Virus record (IMG/VR): IMGVR_UViG_3300013285_000989
Location: 1 to 41,992 of that record
DNA: 41,992 nucleotides
Strand: one strand, 5' to 3'
DNA from: a virus
Positions within the stretch are counted from its first letter, which is position 1, and every line of letters starts with the position of its first letter. The translations under genes were made by a program, and so were the position numbers. Below the pieces are notes generated by a model. The model saw only the letters and a program-made list of their open reading frames with translations. It was not told where the DNA came from and searched no databases. Shown here one piece after another: positions 26,089-35,377 of the stretch.

Positions 26089-26582
26089 ACAAACGAATTA
26101 TAGATTTTGCAGAATATAAAAATTTAGTCAGTAACATATGTAGAACTATTACACATAGCAATTGGCGCCCGGACTATATAGTGGGCCTTACTCGAGGTGG
26201 ACTCCTACCAGCAGTAATGATTAGTCAATGGTTTGATGTTAAAATGAACAGTTTAGATATTAGTCTACGTGATGGTGGAGATACCGTTAGTAATTTAGGC
26301 ATGGCTGAAGATGCGTTTGAAGGCAAAAACATTCTTATTGTAGATGACATCAATGATACTGGTGCAACGCTTAATTGGATCATGGAAGACTGGCCAAGTG
26401 GATGTTTTCCTGATGATGACAAGTGGCCAACTGTATGGAATAATAATGTAAGATTTGCAGTTATTGTTGATAACTTAGCCAGTAAGTGTAACGCCAAAAT
26501 GGATTACACAGGTATGGAAGTTAACAAGGCCGAACAAGATGTGTGGATTGAATTCCCGTATGAAGAATGGTGGTCAAAATGA
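26085..26582 (+). CDS. phosphoribosyltransferase (type I PRTase fold)
   Basis: Encodes 165 residues. The PRPP-binding motif is ILIVDDINDTGATL (VDDINDTGAT at 86-95), preceded by YIVGLTRGGLLPAVMIS, the usual first strand and loop. The C-terminal part VWIEFPYEEWW is a typical ending for hypoxanthine/xanthine-guanine PRTases such as Gpt. It would salvage a purine base or act on another base using PRPP. Presence in a sugar-nucleotide operon could mean nucleotide supply. Overlaps: 4 nt on both sides (ATGA at 26579). Confidence 0.85.
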   Translation: MNKRIIDFAEYKNLVSNICRTITHSNWRPDYIVGLTRGGLLPAVMISQWFDVKMNSLDISLRDGGDTVSNLGMAEDAFEGKNILIVDDINDTGATLNWIMEDWPSGCFPDDDKWPTVWNNNVRFAVIVDNLASKCNAKMDYTGMEVNKAEQDVWIEFPYEEWWSK

Positions 26583-27316
26583 AAATAGTTGTAGTATCAG
26601 GTGGATTTGATCCAGTTCATTCGGGGCATATAGATTACCTATACGCCGCCAAACAATTAGGCGATATGCTAGTAGTTGGTGTGAATAGTGATACTTGGCT
26701 GGAACGTAAAAAAGGCCGATCGTTCATGCCTGTCAATGAACGTTTCAGTATTATTAATTCATTAAAGCCAGTGGATCATACTATGGTGTTTAATGACGAT
26801 GATGGATCGGCTATTGATCTATTGAAACAGGTCAAACGTGTTCATCCTGATGATGAAATTATATTTGCCAATGGTGGAGATAGAACAGCAGTAAACATTC
26901 CTGAGATGACAGTTACCGACGTTGTCTTTAAATTTGGAGTTGGCGGTGAACACAAAGCTAACAGTAGCAGTTGGATCTTACAAGAATGGAAGGCTCCAAA
27001 AACTGAACGCCCTTGGGGTTACTATCGAGTACTGCACGAAGTTCCAGGAATGAAAGTTAAAGAACTTACTGTTAATCCTGGATGCAGTCTAAGTGTACAA
27101 CGGCATGAACATCGTAATGAATTTTGGATTGTCAGTGAAGGTAAAGGTGCAGTAAATTGGGATCCTGGCCAAACCAAATTAAAACTGCATTCCACAGAAA
27201 AGATTACAAAACGGGAGTGGCATCAACTGACTAATCCCTACGACTATCCATTCAAAGTTGTTGAAATTCAATATGGTTCTTTGTGCGATGAAGCCGATAT
27301 TGAGCGAAAACCATAA
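26579..27316 (+). CDS. fusion of a cytidylyltransferase-like domain and a mannose-6-P isomerase-type cupin
   Basis: Encodes 245 residues from ATG 26579 (ATGA overlap with the PRTase). Residues 1-130 are a nucleotidyltransferase of the RfaE/glycerol-3-P cytidylyltransferase type: VVVSGGFDPVHSGH with HSGH at 14-17, then VNSDTWLERKKGRSFMP and NERFSIINSL. From about 140, ERPWGYYRVL, SLSVQRHEHRNEFWIVSEG and TKREWHQLTNPYDYPFKVVEIQYG are the cupin of type II mannose-6-phosphate isomerase/GDP-mannose pyrophosphorylase proteins, with metal-ligand His residues in QRHEHRNE. A single chain could activate a sugar phosphate and isomerise it. The usual partner domain of this cupin, the GDP-Man pyrophosphorylase, is replaced. 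It is the last gene of the operon. Confidence 0.87.
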   Translation: MKIVVVSGGFDPVHSGHIDYLYAAKQLGDMLVVGVNSDTWLERKKGRSFMPVNERFSIINSLKPVDHTMVFNDDDGSAIDLLKQVKRVHPDDEIIFANGGDRTAVNIPEMTVTDVVFKFGVGGEHKANSSSWILQEWKAPKTERPWGYYRVLHEVPGMKVKELTVNPGCSLSVQRHEHRNEFWIVSEGKGAVNWDPGQTKLKLHSTEKITKREWHQLTNPYDYPFKVVEIQYGSLCDEADIERKP

Positions 27317-28582: not shown

Positions 28583-28984
28583 ATGGCATATTCAGACAAA
28601 GTTATTGATCATTATGAAAATCCCCGCAATGTGGGATCCTTTCAAAAAGATGATCCTGATGTTGGGACTGGCATGGTCGGTGCTCCTGCTTGCGGTGATG
28701 TTATGAAACTGCAAATTAAAGTAGAAGAAGGAATTATCGTAGATGCAAGATTTAAAACATACGGGTGTGGATCAGCAATTGCCAGTTCAAGTCTCGTCAC
28801 AGAGTGGGTCAAGGGAAAAACGCTTGACGAAGCACGAACGATTTCTAATAGCACAATTGCTGAAGAACTTGCCCTTCCACCGGTTAAAATACATTGTTCA
28901 ATACTTGCAGAAGATGCTATCAAAGCGGCCGTAGATGATTACCGTAACCGACACAGCCAAGAAACAAATACAGCGACTGCTTAA
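28583..28984 (+). CDS. iscU: IscU-like Fe-S cluster scaffold protein
   Basis: Encodes 133 residues, full length for the family. All three cluster ligands are present: C37 in GAPACGD, C62 in YGCGSAIASSS and C105 in VKIHCS, plus D39. The chaperone-recognition motif LPPVK is at 98-102, so it could still be handled by host HscA/HscB. The protein assembles [2Fe-2S]/[4Fe-4S] clusters from iron and persulfide delivered by a cysteine desulfurase (IscS); no desulfurase is encoded here, so host IscS would be needed. The ATG follows directly after the preceding stop; the 3' end overlaps the A-type carrier gene by 50 nt. Confidence 0.95.
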   Translation: MAYSDKVIDHYENPRNVGSFQKDDPDVGTGMVGAPACGDVMKLQIKVEEGIIVDARFKTYGCGSAIASSSLVTEWVKGKTLDEARTISNSTIAEELALPPVKIHCSILAEDAIKAAVDDYRNRHSQETNTATA

Positions 28985-29261
28985 TCGTCGCGGTAAGGGC
29001 GTTGGCATTAGACTGGGTGTAAAAACTACAGGATGTAGTGGGTTAGCATACACCATCGAGTATGTAGATAACTATGAAATTGAAGCAGGTGTTACTAACT
29101 TCGCACACAACGAATTCGCTGTATTAATTGATGCCAAAAGCCTAGCTTATATGAATGGCATGACTATAGATTGGGTCCGCAATGGACTCAACGAAGGATT
29201 TGATTTTCAAAATCCTAACGAACGTGACCGATGTGGATGTGGGGAAAGTTTTAGGGTATAA
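28935..29261 (+). CDS. iscA: A-type Fe-S carrier (IscA-like)
   Basis: Encodes 108 residues. The three invariant Cys residues are present: C34 in TTGCSGLAY, C100 and C102 in DRCGCGESF. The family signature GCSGLAYTIEY is intact. A-type proteins accept clusters from IscU and deliver them to apoenzymes, especially [4Fe-4S] proteins. It overlaps iscU by 50 nt in a different frame, an unusually deep overlap that implies co-translation. A second A-type protein is encoded at 35051-35377. Confidence 0.94.
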   Translation: MITVTDTAKKQIQRLLNRRGKGVGIRLGVKTTGCSGLAYTIEYVDNYEIEAGVTNFAHNEFAVLIDAKSLAYMNGMTIDWVRNGLNEGFDFQNPNERDRCGCGESFRV

Positions 29262-29263
29262 CA

Positions 29264-29881
29264 ATGTCAGCAGTATCGCTATGTAATGACCATAACATAA
29301 CGTTTGTACAAATTCCAAAAAATGCTGGTACCAGTATTGGCTCATGGCTTAGAGAAAATAAAAACAAATCCAAATGTACTGAGTGGTACAATCATCCGAG
29401 ACATAGTGAAATTCAATCCAAAAACTTTAGTTTTGCAGTAGTTAGGAATCCATGGGATCGAGCAGTGAGTATGTACTTCTTTTTAAAGCACTGGTCAAGT
29501 CCAATACCAACAGTGTCTACATCTGAACAAATAAGAGCAGAGCTGTATAGGATTAACAGATATCAACAGTTTCCAGAGTTTGAAGATTGGTTGGAAAATA
29601 TTAAACATTTTAAAATGTTACCTTGGATTAAATGGCAAGCGTCAAACTGCCAAACTGATTGGCTGGATATCCCAGTTGATTACATTATCAAATACGAGTC
29701 TTTGGAAAAAGATTTCCACCAGGTACAACAGATGATAAATTGTTATAATCCTCTGCCTAAACTGTTAGTAACCAAAGATATATATAGAACCGACTACAAA
29801 GATTACTATAATAACAACACCATAAGTATGGTAGCAGAGTATTTTAAAAAGGATATCGAACGATGGCAATACGAATTTTAA
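29264..29881 (+). CDS. sulfotransferase family protein
   Basis: Encodes 205 residues. FVQIPKNAGTSIGSWL (about 14-29) is the PAPS 5'-phosphosulfate loop of the Sulfotransfer_2 type (K-N/T-A-G-T-S). FAVVRNPWDRAVSMYFF (R61 and surrounding) is the 3'-phosphate-binding motif R-N/D-P-x-x-R-x-x-S. Such enzymes move sulfate from PAPS to a sugar or other hydroxyl. The next gene encodes an APS kinase, which makes PAPS, so the pair probably forms one sulfation module. It overlaps that gene by 19 nt. Confidence 0.85.
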   Translation: MSAVSLCNDHNITFVQIPKNAGTSIGSWLRENKNKSKCTEWYNHPRHSEIQSKNFSFAVVRNPWDRAVSMYFFLKHWSSPIPTVSTSEQIRAELYRINRYQQFPEFEDWLENIKHFKMLPWIKWQASNCQTDWLDIPVDYIIKYESLEKDFHQVQQMINCYNPLPKLLVTKDIYRTDYKDYYNNNTISMVAEYFKKDIERWQYEF

Positions 29882-30654
29882 TTATGGGACTTCCAGGCGC
29901 TGGAAAGACTTACCTAGCAACTGAATTAAAAAAACTATTAGAACAGAATGGTAAAACTATAACTTGGTTTAATGCCGATGAAGTTCGTAAACAGTTTGAT
30001 GATTGGGATTTTAGTGAAGCGGGCCGCATACGCCAAAGTAAACGTATGCATGACCTAGCAGAGACTTGTGGAACAGACTACGCACTATGCGATTTTGTTG
30101 CACCGCTTGCTGAAATGCGTCACAACTTCAAAGCTGACTGGACAGTCTGGATGGATACTATTCGCGAAGGTAGATATGCTGATACCAATGCCATGTTTAT
30201 CGAACCAACTGAATATGATTTTAGAATTACTGAACAAAATGCAGAGAAATGGGCAGAATTTATTGTTTCACACATTCATGATAACCGTAGGCGCCCAACA
30301 TTTGACTGGCAACAAGAAACAGTACAGATGCTGGGTCGTTGGCAACCTTGGCATGATGGTCACCGTGCGCTGTTTGATCGTGCTATTGCCAAAACAGGCC
30401 AAGTGTGTATTATGATTCGCGACTGTCAAGGATGGCAAGGCAGCAATCCATTTGAAATCGAAAAGGTAAAGAAATTTATTCAAAGAGATCTTGACATGTT
30501 GTATCAAGGTCAGTATAATATACAAGTTGTTCCTAATATTGTGAATATCACTTATGGACGAGATGTAGGTTATCAAATTGAACAAGAAGTATTTAATGAT
30601 GCTGTCCACAATATCAGTGCTACTAAAATTAGAAAGAGTTTGGGAATTGAGTAA
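29863..30654 (+). CDS. APS kinase-like domain fused to a HxGH nucleotidyltransferase
   Basis: Encodes 263 residues. Residues 1-145 look like adenylylsulfate kinase: P-loop GLPGAGKT at 9-16, WFNADEVRKQFDDWDFS and GRIRQSKRM (equivalent to the CysC D-G-D-N-x-R and F-S and R motifs), CDFVAPLAEMR. Residues about 150-263 are a cytidylyl/adenylyltransferase fold: LGRWQPWHDGH (HxGH), YGRDVGY and ISATKIRKSL. This half is much shorter than a normal ATP sulfurylase and also resembles NadM-type adenylyltransferases. If it makes APS, the protein would be a minimal PAPS synthase; otherwise it activates a different substrate. It follows the sulfotransferase. Confidence 0.82.
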   Translation: MAIRILIMGLPGAGKTYLATELKKLLEQNGKTITWFNADEVRKQFDDWDFSEAGRIRQSKRMHDLAETCGTDYALCDFVAPLAEMRHNFKADWTVWMDTIREGRYADTNAMFIEPTEYDFRITEQNAEKWAEFIVSHIHDNRRRPTFDWQQETVQMLGRWQPWHDGHRALFDRAIAKTGQVCIMIRDCQGWQGSNPFEIEKVKKFIQRDLDMLYQGQYNIQVVPNIVNITYGRDVGYQIEQEVFNDAVHNISATKIRKSLGIE

Positions 30655-30823
30655 AACATTATGGAAAACATTGACCTGGCGCCTAGTTGGGTCAACTAGC
30701 ACATTCTTAATAAGTTATCTAGTTACGGGGCAATTTTTTATTGCTACCAGTATTGCCGTCGCACAGATGATTGCCAATACTATCCTATACTACATACACG
30801 AAGTTATTTGGAATAAGGTATAA
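30647..30823 (+). CDS. DUF2061-like small membrane protein
   Basis: Encodes 58 residues from TTG 30647 (MSKTLWKTLTWRLVGSTSTF). KTLTWRLVGSTSTFLISYLV and YYIHEVIWNKV match the DUF2061 pattern (W-R-x-x-x-x-x-x-T, YYxHExxW). Two membrane helices are predicted at about 15-30 and 35-50. Upstream AGAAAGAG is a possible Shine-Dalgarno site. A start further upstream, inside the previous gene, is less likely. Its stop overlaps the TctA start (TAATG). It is not a TctB, which would be about 150 residues with four helices. Confidence 0.68.
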   Translation: MSKTLWKTLTWRLVGSTSTFLISYLVTGQFFIATSIAVAQMIANTILYYIHEVIWNKV

Positions 30824-32280
30824 TGGAATTTTTAATACACTATGGCCCTTGGCTACTGCTAGGTGTGCTATACGGATTTATATTTGGGATTATTCCCATC
30901 GCTGGGGCAGGTACTGCTCTACTGACTGTCTACAGTTTTATTCATGTGTTCAAAGGCGACCCATATAGCCTAGTGGTTTTTACTACGGCTATTGTAGTCT
31001 CTGCCAGCATTGGTGATTTGTTTGCCAGTGTGGTATTAAACATTCCAGGCGGGGGAGGTAGTGCCGCTACAATGGTTGATGGCTACCCCATGGCCAAACG
31101 TGGAGAAGCCGCAAGAGCTATGTCAGCTAGTTTGTTCAGTGCCACAGCACAAGGTACATTTTGGGGTATACTCACTATCTTCTTCCTACCCTATTATGCC
31201 ACTGTAGTACTAGCATTTGGCATTCCAGAAATATGGAGTTTCCTATTCCTAGCAGTGGCCTGTGTTTGCTTCTTGAGCAGTGAGCTTTGGGTACGCAGTC
31301 TATTTGGTCTAATGCTGGGAGCGTTTGTGGGATTGATTGGTTCTGATCCCGTAACACTGGCACCGCGTTGGACTAGTGGATGGTTTTATCTAGCTGATGG
31401 CATACAGTTTGCTCCTTTAATGGCAGGTGTGATGGCATTACCAGAGATACTGACTGCCATGTGGACCAAGACTGAATACTTAAAGTCCCCTAACAATAAT
31501 TGGCATCAAATCAAACAAGGCTGGAGCGACTTTTGGACCAACAAGTGGTTGAGTTTTAGAAGCGGCATCATTGGCGGATTCATTGGCATGCTACCAGGTA
31601 TTGGTGGAGCCATTGTAGAATGGTTAAGTTATGGACAAACTGTGGCCACAAACAAAAATGAAAAAGTGCCGTTTGGTGAGGGCAATGTCAAAGGTGTAAT
31701 TGGGCCTGAGGGCGCAAACTTAGCACAGAAAGCCACAGCGTATGTTCCTACAGTGCTGTTTGGAGTCCCGGCTGCACCGTTTGAAGTAATGGTTATGATG
31801 TTGCTAACCGCGGTGGGTATGGATTTAGGCAGTCGTAGAGTTCTAACAGACCACTTATTTTATGACACACTGACATTTGGCTTTATGGCCAGTTTATTTC
31901 TTACTTTCTTTATAGCTGTTTGGTTTATCAAATATGCCACACTGATAACTCGTGTACCAATTAGATTTTGGGTAACTCCAGTCATTGCTCTTATTGTATG
32001 GAGTTGTGTACAATATACAGGAGGATGGGAAGATTATGTTATTCTAATTCTAGCTACCGCATTGGGCTTGTCACTTAAATACTTGAAGATTAGCAGAATT
32101 AGTTTTGTTATCGGATTTGTGTTAAGTCTAAAGATTGAATCAATGTCAACACAATTCTTTACGTTGTACAAACTACAAGACCTGTTGCATCATCCAATCA
32201 GTTTAGGTTTAATAGGATTTGCCATGGCGGTCATGGTATATGGGGTATTTTTTAATCGTACCAAAATAAATTATCATTAA
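30823..32280 (+). CDS. TctA-type large membrane subunit of a tripartite tricarboxylate transporter
   Basis: Encodes 485 residues with about 11-12 hydrophobic helices. The TctA family signature is present: VLNIPGGGGSAATMVDGYPMAKRG at about 71-94 (family L-N-I-P-G-x-x-x-x-x-A-T-x-x-D-G-Y-P-x-A), a second symmetric block GMLPGIGGAIVEWLSYGQ near 256, and GVPAAPFEVMVMMLL later. TctA with a small TctB membrane protein and a periplasmic TctC imports citrate and related carboxylates using the ion gradient. Here TctC-like genes follow directly, but no TctB is seen. The length matches the family. It is a likely captured host gene; the substrate is unknown. Confidence 0.92.
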   Translation: MEFLIHYGPWLLLGVLYGFIFGIIPIAGAGTALLTVYSFIHVFKGDPYSLVVFTTAIVVSASIGDLFASVVLNIPGGGGSAATMVDGYPMAKRGEAARAMSASLFSATAQGTFWGILTIFFLPYYATVVLAFGIPEIWSFLFLAVACVCFLSSELWVRSLFGLMLGAFVGLIGSDPVTLAPRWTSGWFYLADGIQFAPLMAGVMALPEILTAMWTKTEYLKSPNNNWHQIKQGWSDFWTNKWLSFRSGIIGGFIGMLPGIGGAIVEWLSYGQTVATNKNEKVPFGEGNVKGVIGPEGANLAQKATAYVPTVLFGVPAAPFEVMVMMLLTAVGMDLGSRRVLTDHLFYDTLTFGFMASLFLTFFIAVWFIKYATLITRVPIRFWVTPVIALIVWSCVQYTGGWEDYVILILATALGLSLKYLKISRISFVIGFVLSLKIESMSTQFFTLYKLQDLLHHPISLGLIGFAMAVMVYGVFFNRTKINYH

Positions 32281-32292
32281 AAAGGAAAAAAA

Positions 32293-33339
32293 ATGAAAAA
32301 GTTTCTAGCAGGTTTAATGTTGGCAGTGTGCGGATTTGCACAAGCTGACATGAACATCGTTGTGCCAGGCAACGGTGGTTGGTGGGCAGTGGTTATTCCA
32401 GAAGTGGAAGCCAAATTGGGCGAGAAAATTGTCCCAGAAATTATCTCAGGTGCTCGTGATATTCCAGCGGGTAACAAGTGGCATGAGAAATTCCGTTTTG
32501 ACAACAACTATATGTTGTTCAGTAACGGCGGTCAAGCAGAAGCATATTTGCTTGAAGATGTCAAATTTGACTTTAAAGATTACGAGCCAATCTTTGCTCA
32601 GAACCAAACTATTATAGTTGGTTACAATAAGACACAAGACCCTTACAAGAACGTGGTCAAATTTGGTGCAGGCTCTGGTATGAATCCAGACGCAATGGCC
32701 ATTACCATGATGGTGTGTGGCCCAAAGCCAGACATGAAAGCATATCTTGCCTGCTACAAAGAAAAGATGATCTATGTCAAGGGCATGAAGAATCCAGAGA
32801 TTGCCCTAGCATACACACGTCAAGAGTTAAATGCTATCCGTGATAACCCAGTTGTTTACAATCGTGATTATTTGCCAGTAGATTGGAATGTTACTTGGTT
32901 CTCAGCAGGATTGTTTGACATCAAGACATCTAAGATTATTCCAGATACAAACTACCCAGTGGGTGTTCGTAGCTTCCCAGAAGCATACAAGGCCAAGTGG
33001 GGCAAAGAGCCCAGCGGTGAGTTTTATGATGCTTGGGTACTAGTCAAGAACTATCGTGATGTGCTACAAAAAGTTGTATGGGTTAACAAAGGTAATCCAA
33101 ACAAAGACCGTTTGATCAAAGCTGTTCGCGAAATGATTGCCGACCCAGAAGCACAAAAACGTATCTCTGATAAGGTTGGTGTATATCCATGGTGGGTAGC
33201 TGGTGAAGTTACTCAAGCACAGAAAGCTTTGGAAAAACAATTGACCAAAAAAGCCTTGACTAACTTAGTTTGGTGGACCAAAGAAGCATATCAAATTGAC
33301 GCCATCTTCAAGCCAGAGATTGTTAGTAAGGCCAAATAA
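32293..33339 (+). CDS. divergent TctC-like periplasmic solute-binding protein
   Basis: Encodes 348 residues with a signal peptide (MKKFLAGLMLAVCGFAQA, cleavage likely before D20). NIVVPGNGGWWAVVIPEVEAKLGEKIVPE matches the TctC N-terminal strand and G-G loop, and VKFGAGSGMNPDAMAI corresponds to the ligand-loop region. It is longer and more divergent than classic Bug/TctC proteins (about 300 mature residues). The start has AAGGAA at 32281-32286. It lies between TctA and the second TctC, overlapping the latter by 1 nt, so all three are probably co-expressed. Ligand unknown. Confidence 0.78.
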   Translation: MKKFLAGLMLAVCGFAQADMNIVVPGNGGWWAVVIPEVEAKLGEKIVPEIISGARDIPAGNKWHEKFRFDNNYMLFSNGGQAEAYLLEDVKFDFKDYEPIFAQNQTIIVGYNKTQDPYKNVVKFGAGSGMNPDAMAITMMVCGPKPDMKAYLACYKEKMIYVKGMKNPEIALAYTRQELNAIRDNPVVYNRDYLPVDWNVTWFSAGLFDIKTSKIIPDTNYPVGVRSFPEAYKAKWGKEPSGEFYDAWVLVKNYRDVLQKVVWVNKGNPNKDRLIKAVREMIADPEAQKRISDKVGVYPWWVAGEVTQAQKALEKQLTKKALTNLVWWTKEAYQIDAIFKPEIVSKAK

Positions 33340-34289
33340 TGAAAAAATTTCTAATTACCCTAGCATTGTTGCCAGCATTAGCATTTGCCTGGCAACCAAC
33401 TAAACCAATCGAAGCAGTAGTAGGCTTTACGCCCGGTAGTGCTAACGAAGTATTGTTCAGAGCCGCGGCATTAGAAGTAACCAAGAACACTGGTGCTACC
33501 TTTGTAGTTGTAAACAAAGGTGGTGCCGGTGGGGTTATCGGTACTGAATATTTTAACAAGATGCCGGCAGATGGGTATAGCGTATTAGCTATGAGCCTAA
33601 CTGGTGCTTATGCGATGGATAAAGTTGCTGTTCCTACAGGACGTAGCTATACTGTAGAAAGTTTTACCTACCCTACATACCTAGCAAGTAATCCTTTTTC
33701 AATTATTGCCAACGTAAGCGACCCTGTGTCAACACCTAAGCAATTAATTGAATCTCTAAAGAATGAAAAAAGTTCTTTTAGTGCTAGCGGTGGCGCTCGA
33801 CTAGTATTTGAAAGCATCGAATCGCGCATTCATTTCCCTCTAGGCGAAAAAGGTGTTGTACGTGTCGACCACAAAGGTCCTAAGGATGCGTTAATGGATG
33901 TAATGGGCGGGCACGTTCGCTATGCTGTTATCCCATTAAGCGTTAGTATTGAGATGTACAAGGCCGGCAAGGTTAAGATTGTGGCACTAAGTGCTAAGTC
34001 TCCGCAATTGCCAGAGCTTCGTACTCTAGGTGAAGTATTACCCGGGCTCGATGTAGCCGCACATTGGGGACTAGCCCTACAGAAAGATGTTCCGACTGAC
34101 GTACTAGAATGGTACAACAAGGAATTTACCAAGGCGCTAAACAGTGACTCCGTTAAAGATTTGTACAAGGCTCAATTGTTCTCATTAGATCCTGCGTTGG
34201 AAACTCCTAGTGCTATGTTTAAATGGATGAAGGCTAACGATACAAAGTATCAACCTCTAATTGATAACATCTTAAAAAGTACTCAATGA
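33339..34289 (+). CDS. TctC/Bug-type periplasmic solute-binding protein
   Basis: Encodes 316 residues with a signal peptide (MKKFLITLALLPALAFA, cleavage before W18). The Bug family order is clear: KPIEAVVGFTPGSANEVLFRAAA (P-G-G/S-x-x-D/E), VVNKGGAGGVIGTEYFNKMPADGYS, SFSASGGARL (in place of GS-x-G), MGGHVRYAVIPLS, KVKIVALSAKSPQLPELRTLGE. It captures a carboxylate in the periplasm for TctA. It is closer to the family consensus than the gene before it. Its 3' end overlaps the next gene by 4 nt. Confidence 0.92.
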   Translation: MKKFLITLALLPALAFAWQPTKPIEAVVGFTPGSANEVLFRAAALEVTKNTGATFVVVNKGGAGGVIGTEYFNKMPADGYSVLAMSLTGAYAMDKVAVPTGRSYTVESFTYPTYLASNPFSIIANVSDPVSTPKQLIESLKNEKSSFSASGGARLVFESIESRIHFPLGEKGVVRVDHKGPKDALMDVMGGHVRYAVIPLSVSIEMYKAGKVKIVALSAKSPQLPELRTLGEVLPGLDVAAHWGLALQKDVPTDVLEWYNKEFTKALNSDSVKDLYKAQLFSLDPALETPSAMFKWMKANDTKYQPLIDNILKSTQ

Positions 34290-35011
34290 AGTATGTATTC
34301 ATTTCTGGTGTTCCTGGCAGTTGCTGGGGCTGGCCGCAAACTTATGCTAAGTTAGCTACGCCATTAGTTGACGACTCTAACAACCATCCTTGGCGAATTA
34401 ATAACAATCGACCTTGTGCCGCAACACACGAGACTAGTGTGTTTGCCGGCCCATATAATGAAATCGGTGAAGGGTTTGATCAGTTAAGTTTATATGATAG
34501 CAAAGAACAAATCTTTGCTGAGATAGACAAAGCGTTTGAACCAACTGATAAACATTTAATTCGATTTGTACAATGCCACTGGTTTGCTTACCAGCTAGAT
34601 TGGATTGCTGAGAACTTACCGGAGGTGGATATATTAATGTCACTGAGAAATCAGGAGATGTCCTACCAAGCCTGGCACGATAGTGGTGGGTGGGATATCC
34701 AATACCCTAGTTACAAATGGTACAACAACAGTCAGAATATGTGGCGTCAAGGTGTAATCGAACACAAACTAATGAAGAAATTTGTTCGAGAAAATAAAGT
34801 GAACGTTATAGCAGGCTGGCACGAGGATTGGTTCGACTGGCATTGGCCAGAAATGGCTACGCACATTGACAAGACTAAGTTCCCTGGAAATATTAGTGCC
34901 GCCAAGGGCAGAAATGGTATGACTGGAATTGTTACAGGCTGGGACAGCTTATGCTGGGGTTTGTATACGGGCAAAGAAAGTGCTCCTATTATTTTAAATA
35001 AAAAGAAATGA
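34286..35011 (+). CDS. P-loop/sulfotransferase-like hypothetical protein
   Basis: Encodes 241 residues. The start YVFISGVPGSCWGW resembles the first strand and loop of sulfotransferase-like NTPases (F-I-x-G-x-P-x-S), and LMSLRNQEMSYQAWHDSG fits the S-x-R-N-P/Q segment that binds the 3' phosphate. The end WHEDWFDWHWPEM is rich in Trp. It is a possible second sulfotransferase in the same operon as the APS kinase, but without the K-x-G-T-S/T loop the assignment is weak. Overlaps the TctC stop by 4 nt (ATGA). Confidence 0.6.
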   Translation: MKYVFISGVPGSCWGWPQTYAKLATPLVDDSNNHPWRINNNRPCAATHETSVFAGPYNEIGEGFDQLSLYDSKEQIFAEIDKAFEPTDKHLIRFVQCHWFAYQLDWIAENLPEVDILMSLRNQEMSYQAWHDSGGWDIQYPSYKWYNNSQNMWRQGVIEHKLMKKFVRENKVNVIAGWHEDWFDWHWPEMATHIDKTKFPGNISAAKGRNGMTGIVTGWDSLCWGLYTGKESAPIILNKKK

Positions 35012-35039
35012 AACAACTTTTGATTGTTAGTAAAGTCAC

Positions 35040-35046
35040 TAAATAA
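35040..35046 (+). promoter_or_regulatory. late-promoter-like CTAAATAA motif
   Basis: CACTAAATAATCTT lies 4 nt before ATG 35051; no Shine-Dalgarno site is visible. Confidence 0.4.
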
Positions 35047-35050
35047 TCTT

Positions 35051-35377
35051 ATGCAAATAGAAATTACTGAATCCGCAAAAGAAAAGATCAACGATATTCT
35101 TTCCGAAGAGAATAATCCGTCAGCTTGCCTACGTACTTTTGTACAGGGCGGCGGATGCAGTGGTTTTCAATATGGATTTACCATAGACGAAGAACAAAAC
35201 GAAGATGATTTTGTTTTGGAAACGGGTAAGTTCAAAGTTTTGGTAGACAGTATGAGCTATCAATACCTGTCTGGATCCGTAATTGATTACAAAGATGACA
35301 TCATGGGATCCAGTTTCACTATCAAAAATCCACAGGCTGTATCCACATGCGGCTGTGGCAGTTCGTTCAGTGTTTAA
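35051..35377 (+). CDS. erpA: second A-type Fe-S carrier (ErpA-like)
   Basis: Encodes 108 residues from ATG 35051 ([20 protein letters not shown]). An in-frame TTG at 35024 is upstream of the motif and unlikely. Cys ligands are C36 in [12 protein letters not shown]100 and C102 in [11 protein letters not shown]. The [11 protein letters not shown] block and the SF-V ending are characteristic of ErpA/IscA2-type proteins, which insert [4Fe-4S] clusters into target enzymes. This is different from the IscA-like gene at 28935-29261 (GCSGLAYTIEY). The two copies may serve different targets. Confidence 0.92.

Follow-up and report, generated by a model that had tools for sequence, protein, structure and literature searches.

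A Candidate Miniature PAPS Synthase Overlapping a Sulfotransferase Gene in a Phage Operon

Results

The IMG/VR virus record IMGVR_UViG_3300013285_000989 (41,992 bases, unclosed; its full length is referred to as the window) carries a sulfotransferase gene that overlaps the gene of a 263-aa protein, in which a domain resembling the kinase of adenosine 5'-phosphosulfate (APS) is joined to a short nucleotidyltransferase (NTase) domain. The phage character of the window is backed by an endolysin (27405), a DNA ligase (35443) and an HNH endonuclease (37029), and every gene between 28583 and 36759 lies on the + strand in tight packing. The open reading frames (ORFs) at the module are as first listed: the stop codon TAA of the sulfotransferase occupies 29879-29881 and the ATG of the fusion gene lies at 29863, which gives an overlap of 19 nt in different frames. 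Overlap, domain fusion and a sulfotransferase with intact phosphate motifs had all been read from the DNA in an original prediction and were borne out here, as was a further possible sulfotransferase on the same strand of the operon.

The overlapping sulfotransferase matches Pfam Sulfotransfer_2 (PF03567) with 2e-9 and 38.4 bits against a cut-off of 22, and PHROG 3347 with 1e-16. Its 5'-phosphate motif PKNAGTS is found at 29315-29335 and its 3'-phosphate motif RNPWDRAVS at 29444-29470. Homologues adjoin the kinase-NTase gene in the phage loci L028, L030 and L034 (L numbers denote phage or bacterial loci with the family, G numbers genomes). The ORF at 34286-35011 itself gave no match in Pfam, PHROG or NCBIfam. 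Since its homologue at L031:4084-4713 (25.9% identity, E 7e-11) passes the cut-off of Sulfotransfer_3 (PF13469) with 29.5 versus 27, it is considered a possible sulfotransferase. The gene order in L031, L032 and L035 is TctC, the homologue of this ORF, a further gene, a protein with a P-loop-like start and the kinase-NTase fusion. A pattern scan of IMG/VR revealed no close relatives of either sulfotransferase-like protein; distant ones were encountered beside kinase-NTase genes. Neither protein has a sequence match in the PDB.

The N-terminal domain of the fusion protein matches Pfam APS_kinase (PF01583) over residues 3-91 (4e-10, 40.3 bits, cut-off 21.1), while the 30.3 bits obtained with the CysC equivalog TIGR00455 are far under its cut-off of 138.7. 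PHROG 10255, annotated as kinase, covers the whole 263-aa protein with 5e-50. In the AlphaFold2 model of the full protein (pLDDT 90) the kinase domain has only APS kinases as its top Foldseek matches (4rfv, TMt 0.81, rmsd 2.0), and hhalign relates it to canonical CysC with 98.4%. Besides the P-loop GLPGAGKT (29887-29910), the alignment with the CysC profile shows D39 (the catalytic Asp), R42, F50, R55, R61 and FVAP (F(I/V)xP) to be kept; one APS-contact residue of CysC, the Asn of RxEN, is exchanged for Gln (Q58). The aligned R/F/R/N positions correspond to the APS contacts in the fungal and human APS kinase structures. In many phage members, for example L032, L049 and L076, an insert of 15-25 residues is located between the first helix and the second strand of this domain.

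The NTase domain comprises about 110 aa and exhibits a weak Pfam CTP_transf_like match at residues 158-186. Its HxGH motif HDGH lies at 30352-30363 (residues 164-167), its GR at 30556-30561 and ISATKIR at 30613-30633 (residues 251-257). The model of this domain (pLDDT 88.6) shows a fold similar to NadM and phosphopantetheine adenylyltransferase (PPAT), a match that spans only about 77 residues. The ATP half, with GRFxPxHxGH and ISxTxxR, matches NadM by sequence as well (hmmsearch 3e-10 to 2qjt), and none of the NadM equivalog cut-offs is reached. From the ATP half to ISxTxIR the NTase profile counts 20 positions (78->98) in comparison to 45 in MJ0541 (65->110) and is thus shorter by about 25 residues. 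In NadM the site for nicotinamide mononucleotide (NMN) lies in this stretch. In the NTase it contains an invariant GRxVGY motif, the GR of which resembles the GRDHAG of ATP sulfurylases; this may be coincidence. The original prediction had held a NadM-like substrate pocket against an APS-making role. Examined by sequence and fold, just the ATP half proved to be NadM-like, and because the half with the NMN site is so much shorter, an NMN function of the domain appears unlikely from its anatomy.

In IMG/VR, relatives of the kinase-NTase protein occur in at least 234 stretches, with up to 79% identity, and therefore the family is not a product of chance; the window genes beside it are far less conserved in these relatives. 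Sulfation of a glycan on the phage or host surface had been regarded as an unusual phage trait, a view that does not hold in so far as phage contigs from the environment commonly carry the kinase-NTase family. Isolated phages with the family, among them Stenotrophomonas phages Suzuki and DLP_6, have Stenotrophomonas, Xanthomonas and Clavibacter as hosts. A single scan of genome contigs added at least 356 family-encoding stretches, and the bacterial carriers include SAR11, SAR116, SAR86 and Rhizobium. The fused form of the window is found in Pelagibacteraceae and some SAR116. SAR86 contains two overlapping genes of about 136 aa (kinase) and about 130 aa (NTase), and the NTase stands alone in marine Bacteroidetes, one Woeseiaceae genome and two SAR116 genomes. 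This natural splitting of the two domains makes a functional test by genome comparison possible, for which 46 genomes with the NTase were used, 7 without and 39 with the kinase.

Linkage to sulfotransferases is seen at several levels. On the chromosome of Rhizobium sp. BK376, sulfotransferase, kinase and NTase form a single frame of 555 aa. A Pelagibacteraceae locus (L099) has a sulfotransferase immediately 5' in the order of the window, separated by one stop and three codons. In SAR116, a Sulfotransfer_1 (PF00685, 2e-25) gene follows the family gene immediately 3' in L097 and a Sulfotransfer_2 gene does so in L195, and TPR-sulfotransferases adjoin it in L193, L100 and L196. Sulfotransfer_1 occurs above cut-off in 38 of the 46 family genomes compared to 2 of 14 control genomes, and of the 71 PF00685 matches in the 46 genomes nine are no more than 6 kb away from the family, against an expectation of 0.6. 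Among 50 phage records, nine of the ten sulfotransferases above cut-off are located within 6 kb of the kinase-NTase gene (about 2, or ~20%, expected); after grouping of related records this is the case for five of six. Stenotrophomonas phage Suzuki carries a Sulfotransfer_4-like gene two genes 5' of the fusion.

If the NTase makes APS, genomes that hold it without the kinase should possess another APS kinase. Canonical CysC was detected in all seven NTase-only genomes and in 3 of the 39 genomes with both domains (Fisher 2e-6, kinship ignored). Sat and CysD are both missing in six of the seven, and counted over all 46 genomes, 38 have neither of the known ATP sulfurylases; Sat or CysD is also present in a few fusion genomes. 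In the four Bacteroidetes of the NTase-only group cysC is followed by cysQ, which was identified by reading of the sequence. CysQ is the phosphatase of 3'-phosphoadenosine 5'-phosphate that sulfotransferases require. The whole genome of SAR86A (1.25 Mb) contains kinase, NTase, a CysQ orthologue and three sulfotransferases, and neither Sat nor CysC nor CysD was found in it. In one SAR116 locus (L142) the NTase gene occupies the expected position of sat, immediately 5' of aprMBA (an AprM-like gene, aprB and aprA; AprA 951 bits, AprB 190), with cysC 4 kb beyond, and in the near-identical sister genome G046 it is likewise near cysC. Because the L142 genome also has Sat at another site, the case is only suggestive. 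A general rule of linkage to Apr was considered and rejected, the adjacency having been read in L142 and AprA being above cut-off in only 3 of 42 genomes. Separately, it was observed that a classical Sat gene adjoins a pyruvate kinase-like gene in SAR11 (L199:7403-10202) and SAR116 (L209:2156-4660); L199 also encodes a CysC-like kinase of 152 aa.

Table 1. Annotated features of the module and the downstream operon
Feature	Position	Strand	Basis
Sulfotransferase, 205 aa, Sulfotransfer_2 type (PHROG 3347)	29264-29881	+	Pfam, PHROG, motifs, homologues
Kinase-NTase fusion protein, 263 aa	29863-30654	+	ORF
APS-kinase-like domain, residues 1-140 of the fusion	29863-30282	+	Pfam APS_kinase, Foldseek, hhalign
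HxGH NTase domain, residues 152-263 of the fusion	30316-30654	+	NadM profile match, AlphaFold2 model, stand-alone orthologues
DUF2061 small membrane protein	30647-30823	+	Pfam PF09834 4.7e-18; TTG start overlaps kinase-NTase stop
TctA, large membrane subunit of tripartite tricarboxylate transporter	30823-32280	+	Pfam PF01970 3e-78
348-aa protein, signal-peptide-like N-terminus	32293-33339	+	without family match
TctC solute-binding protein	33339-34289	+	Pfam PF03401 4e-20
Divergent sulfotransferase-like protein, 241 aa (GVPGSCW... SLRNQEMS)	34286-35011	+	homologue in L031

The module is preceded by genes of an NAD-dependent epimerase, a GDSL protein, a B12 radical SAM protein, a UDP-glucose dehydrogenase-like protein and a cytidylyltransferase-cupin fusion, the last of which (26567-27316) joins an HldE-like cytidylyltransferase domain to a cupin of the mannose-6-phosphate isomerase type. 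Iron-sulfur assembly genes (IscU, IscA, ErpA-like) flank the module on both sides (28583-29261 and 35024-35377). On its 3' side the kinase-NTase gene is followed, in this order, by DUF2061, TctA, the 348-aa protein, TctC and the second sulfotransferase-like gene, so that a TctA/TctC transporter pair is embedded in a phage operon (30823-34289). TctC homologues occur near kinase-NTase genes in five other phage loci (L023, L031, L032, L035, L046) and are close to sulfotransferase-like genes there as well. A DUF2061 gene stands immediately 3' of kinase-NTase in 16 phage loci (e.g. L003-L006, L012, L019, L028, L030, L034). A wider partnership of DUF2061 with sulfate activation found no support in bacteria, where it adjoins in only 1 of the 46 genomes; it is a neighbour in phages only.

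Discussion

We propose, with a rough probability of 0.66, that the 263-aa protein is a miniature bifunctional synthase of 3'-phosphoadenosine 5'-phosphosulfate (PAPS) which supplies the phage sulfotransferases. Both catalytic activities are inferred from sequence and domains, from the modelled folds, and from the linkage of the genes and their co-occurrence across genomes. The C-terminal NTase would adenylylate sulfate (ATP + SO4 -> APS + PPi), the kinase domain at the N-terminus would turn APS into PAPS by phosphorylation of its 3'-OH, and the overlapping sulfotransferase would use PAPS to sulfate an acceptor; the sulfotransferase-like protein encoded at 34286 is probably PAPS-using too. Since the operon sits among sugar-nucleotide genes, our guess is that the acceptor is most likely a glycan. 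That the protein would be a very small PAPS synthase, provided that the NTase makes APS, had already been put forward in the original prediction, and from fusion, neighbourhoods and genome presence patterns this appears to be the best-supported reading of the sequence data.

The NTase would then be an ATP sulfurylase type apart from Sat and CysD, reached via NadM/PPAT-like adenylyltransferases with a shortened half for the second substrate. On balance we lean towards the NTases being a third ATP sulfurylase class of independent evolution, about 110-130 aa in length and distributed over SAR11, SAR86, SAR116, marine Bacteroidetes and many phages. Together with a shortened APS kinase, such an enzyme would form a PAPS synthase for the phages' own sulfation, its APS-making half being unrelated to that of animal PAPSS.

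Several findings weigh against this assignment. Homology of the NTase to Sat is undetectable (no PF01747 match, 15% in hhalign versus the Sat profile), and instead of the Sat motif QxRNPxHxxH it has GRWQPWHDGH, and just the GR of GRDHAG. Membership in the Sat family was therefore rejected. The nearest relatives of the NTase are NMN and phosphopantetheine adenylyltransferases. In the kinase, the APS-kinase lid (RDxKGLYKKAR, FTGI) is without counterpart and GR(F/Y)xDTNxxF stands in its place. In most fusion-carrying phage records Pfam detects no sulfotransferase, the seven NTase-only genomes represent about three lineages, and the genomes are partly incomplete, which makes gene absences soft. 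Two further observations, the absence of a recognised NadD from SAR86 genomes (G024-G028, G036-G042) and a NADAR-domain gene overlapping the kinase-NTase gene in phage Suzuki (L001:4565-5738), with the sulfotransferase-like gene just 5' of it, would be compatible with a role in NAD metabolism.

They belong to the main rival explanation, a NadR-like salvage of NAD with reversed domains. Here the kinase would phosphorylate nicotinamide riboside and the NTase would couple NMN to AMP, restoring NAD during infection. Carriage of NadM, NadR and NadV by phages for NAD restoration is known (PMC9503650). NadM is also the closest match of the ATP half, and SAR86 holds both genes in the absence of a recognised NadD; a NadE motif was not found in SAR86A either. 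A 369-aa CinA-C-like/NadD-like protein was noted in that genome (G027 C1:309566-310675). We nevertheless regard NAD salvage as unlikely. Apart from the reduced NMN half, the kinase is of the APS-kinase type and not of the ribosylnicotinamide-kinase family, and outside SAR86 most NTase-bearing genomes do possess NadD. Additionally, the pairing of the kinase-less NTase with CysC, the fusion and linkage to sulfotransferases and the apr operon would be left unexplained.

Slightly less credible is the formation of a different 3'-phosphonucleotide donor, from which the sulfotransferase-like proteins might move a group other than sulfate onto a glycan. CysC-like kinases with other substrates exist, such as Cj1415 of Campylobacter, which acts in O-methyl phosphoramidate synthesis. 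The richness of the window operon in sugar-nucleotide genes would fit such a donor, as would an NTase that is not an ATP sulfurylase homologue. However, wherever the NTase occurs alone it is canonical CysC, a user of APS, that replaces the kinase; cysQ after cysC in the Bacteroidetes and the apr operon of L142 likewise point to APS itself. Finally, it is very unlikely that only the kinase serves sulfation by topping up PAPS from host APS, the NTase having a separate or regulatory role: the evidence for the kinase is indeed stronger than that for the NTase, and Sat or CysD in a few fusion genomes would agree with it, but of the two domains the NTase is kept more widely, seven genomes, all with CysC, retaining it without the kinase, and the 38 genomes without known ATP sulfurylases would offer the kinase no APS as substrate.

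An earlier report of viral cysC assigned it to assimilatory sulfate reduction (PMC9529941); elsewhere, what phage sulfotransferases do was termed unclear (PMC10580990). No report on the kinase-NTase fusion was found in a literature search mostly without subscription journals. PAPS synthases as such are known; new, if the proposal is true, would be one of less than half the usual size with an APS-making half of separate origin. The family would then fill a gap, as the abundant marine bacteria SAR86 and SAR11 possess sulfotransferases but no recognised enzymes of sulfate activation, and a PAPS synthase of 263 aa would be a handy tool for the production of sulfated compounds.

Comparison with Known Systems

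Similar to animal PAPSS1/2 and bacterial Sat-CysC fusions (Aquifex SAT/APS kinase, 2gks), the phage protein combines in one chain an APS kinase with a proposed APS-making adenylyltransferase and occurs together with sulfotransferases. Those enzymes comprise about 550-630 aa in comparison to 263 aa, and they differ in that the APS-making part of the phage protein is an NadM/PPAT-like domain of about 110 aa rather than Sat, and that its kinase lid is shortened. With CysC (PF01583, TIGR00455) the kinase domain shares fold, P-loop, catalytic Asp/Arg, the Phe and Arg positions and F(I/V)xP, whereas it stays far under the TIGR00455 cut-off, has one N->Q exchange at an APS contact, and the lid and C-terminal region are replaced. 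NadM and the archaeal NMN adenylyltransferase have GRxQPxHxGH, NPF, ISxTxIR and the Rossmann-like fold of the ATP half in common with the NTase, which in contrast is about 25 residues shorter before ISxTxIR, contains the invariant GRxVGY and possesses no Nudix domain. NadR also unites a kinase and an HxGH adenylyltransferase in one chain, but in the phage fusion the domain order is reversed, the kinase belongs to another family and a repressor domain is absent. PHROG 10255, finally, matches over the full length and represents the same family; the sole function label given there is 'kinase'.

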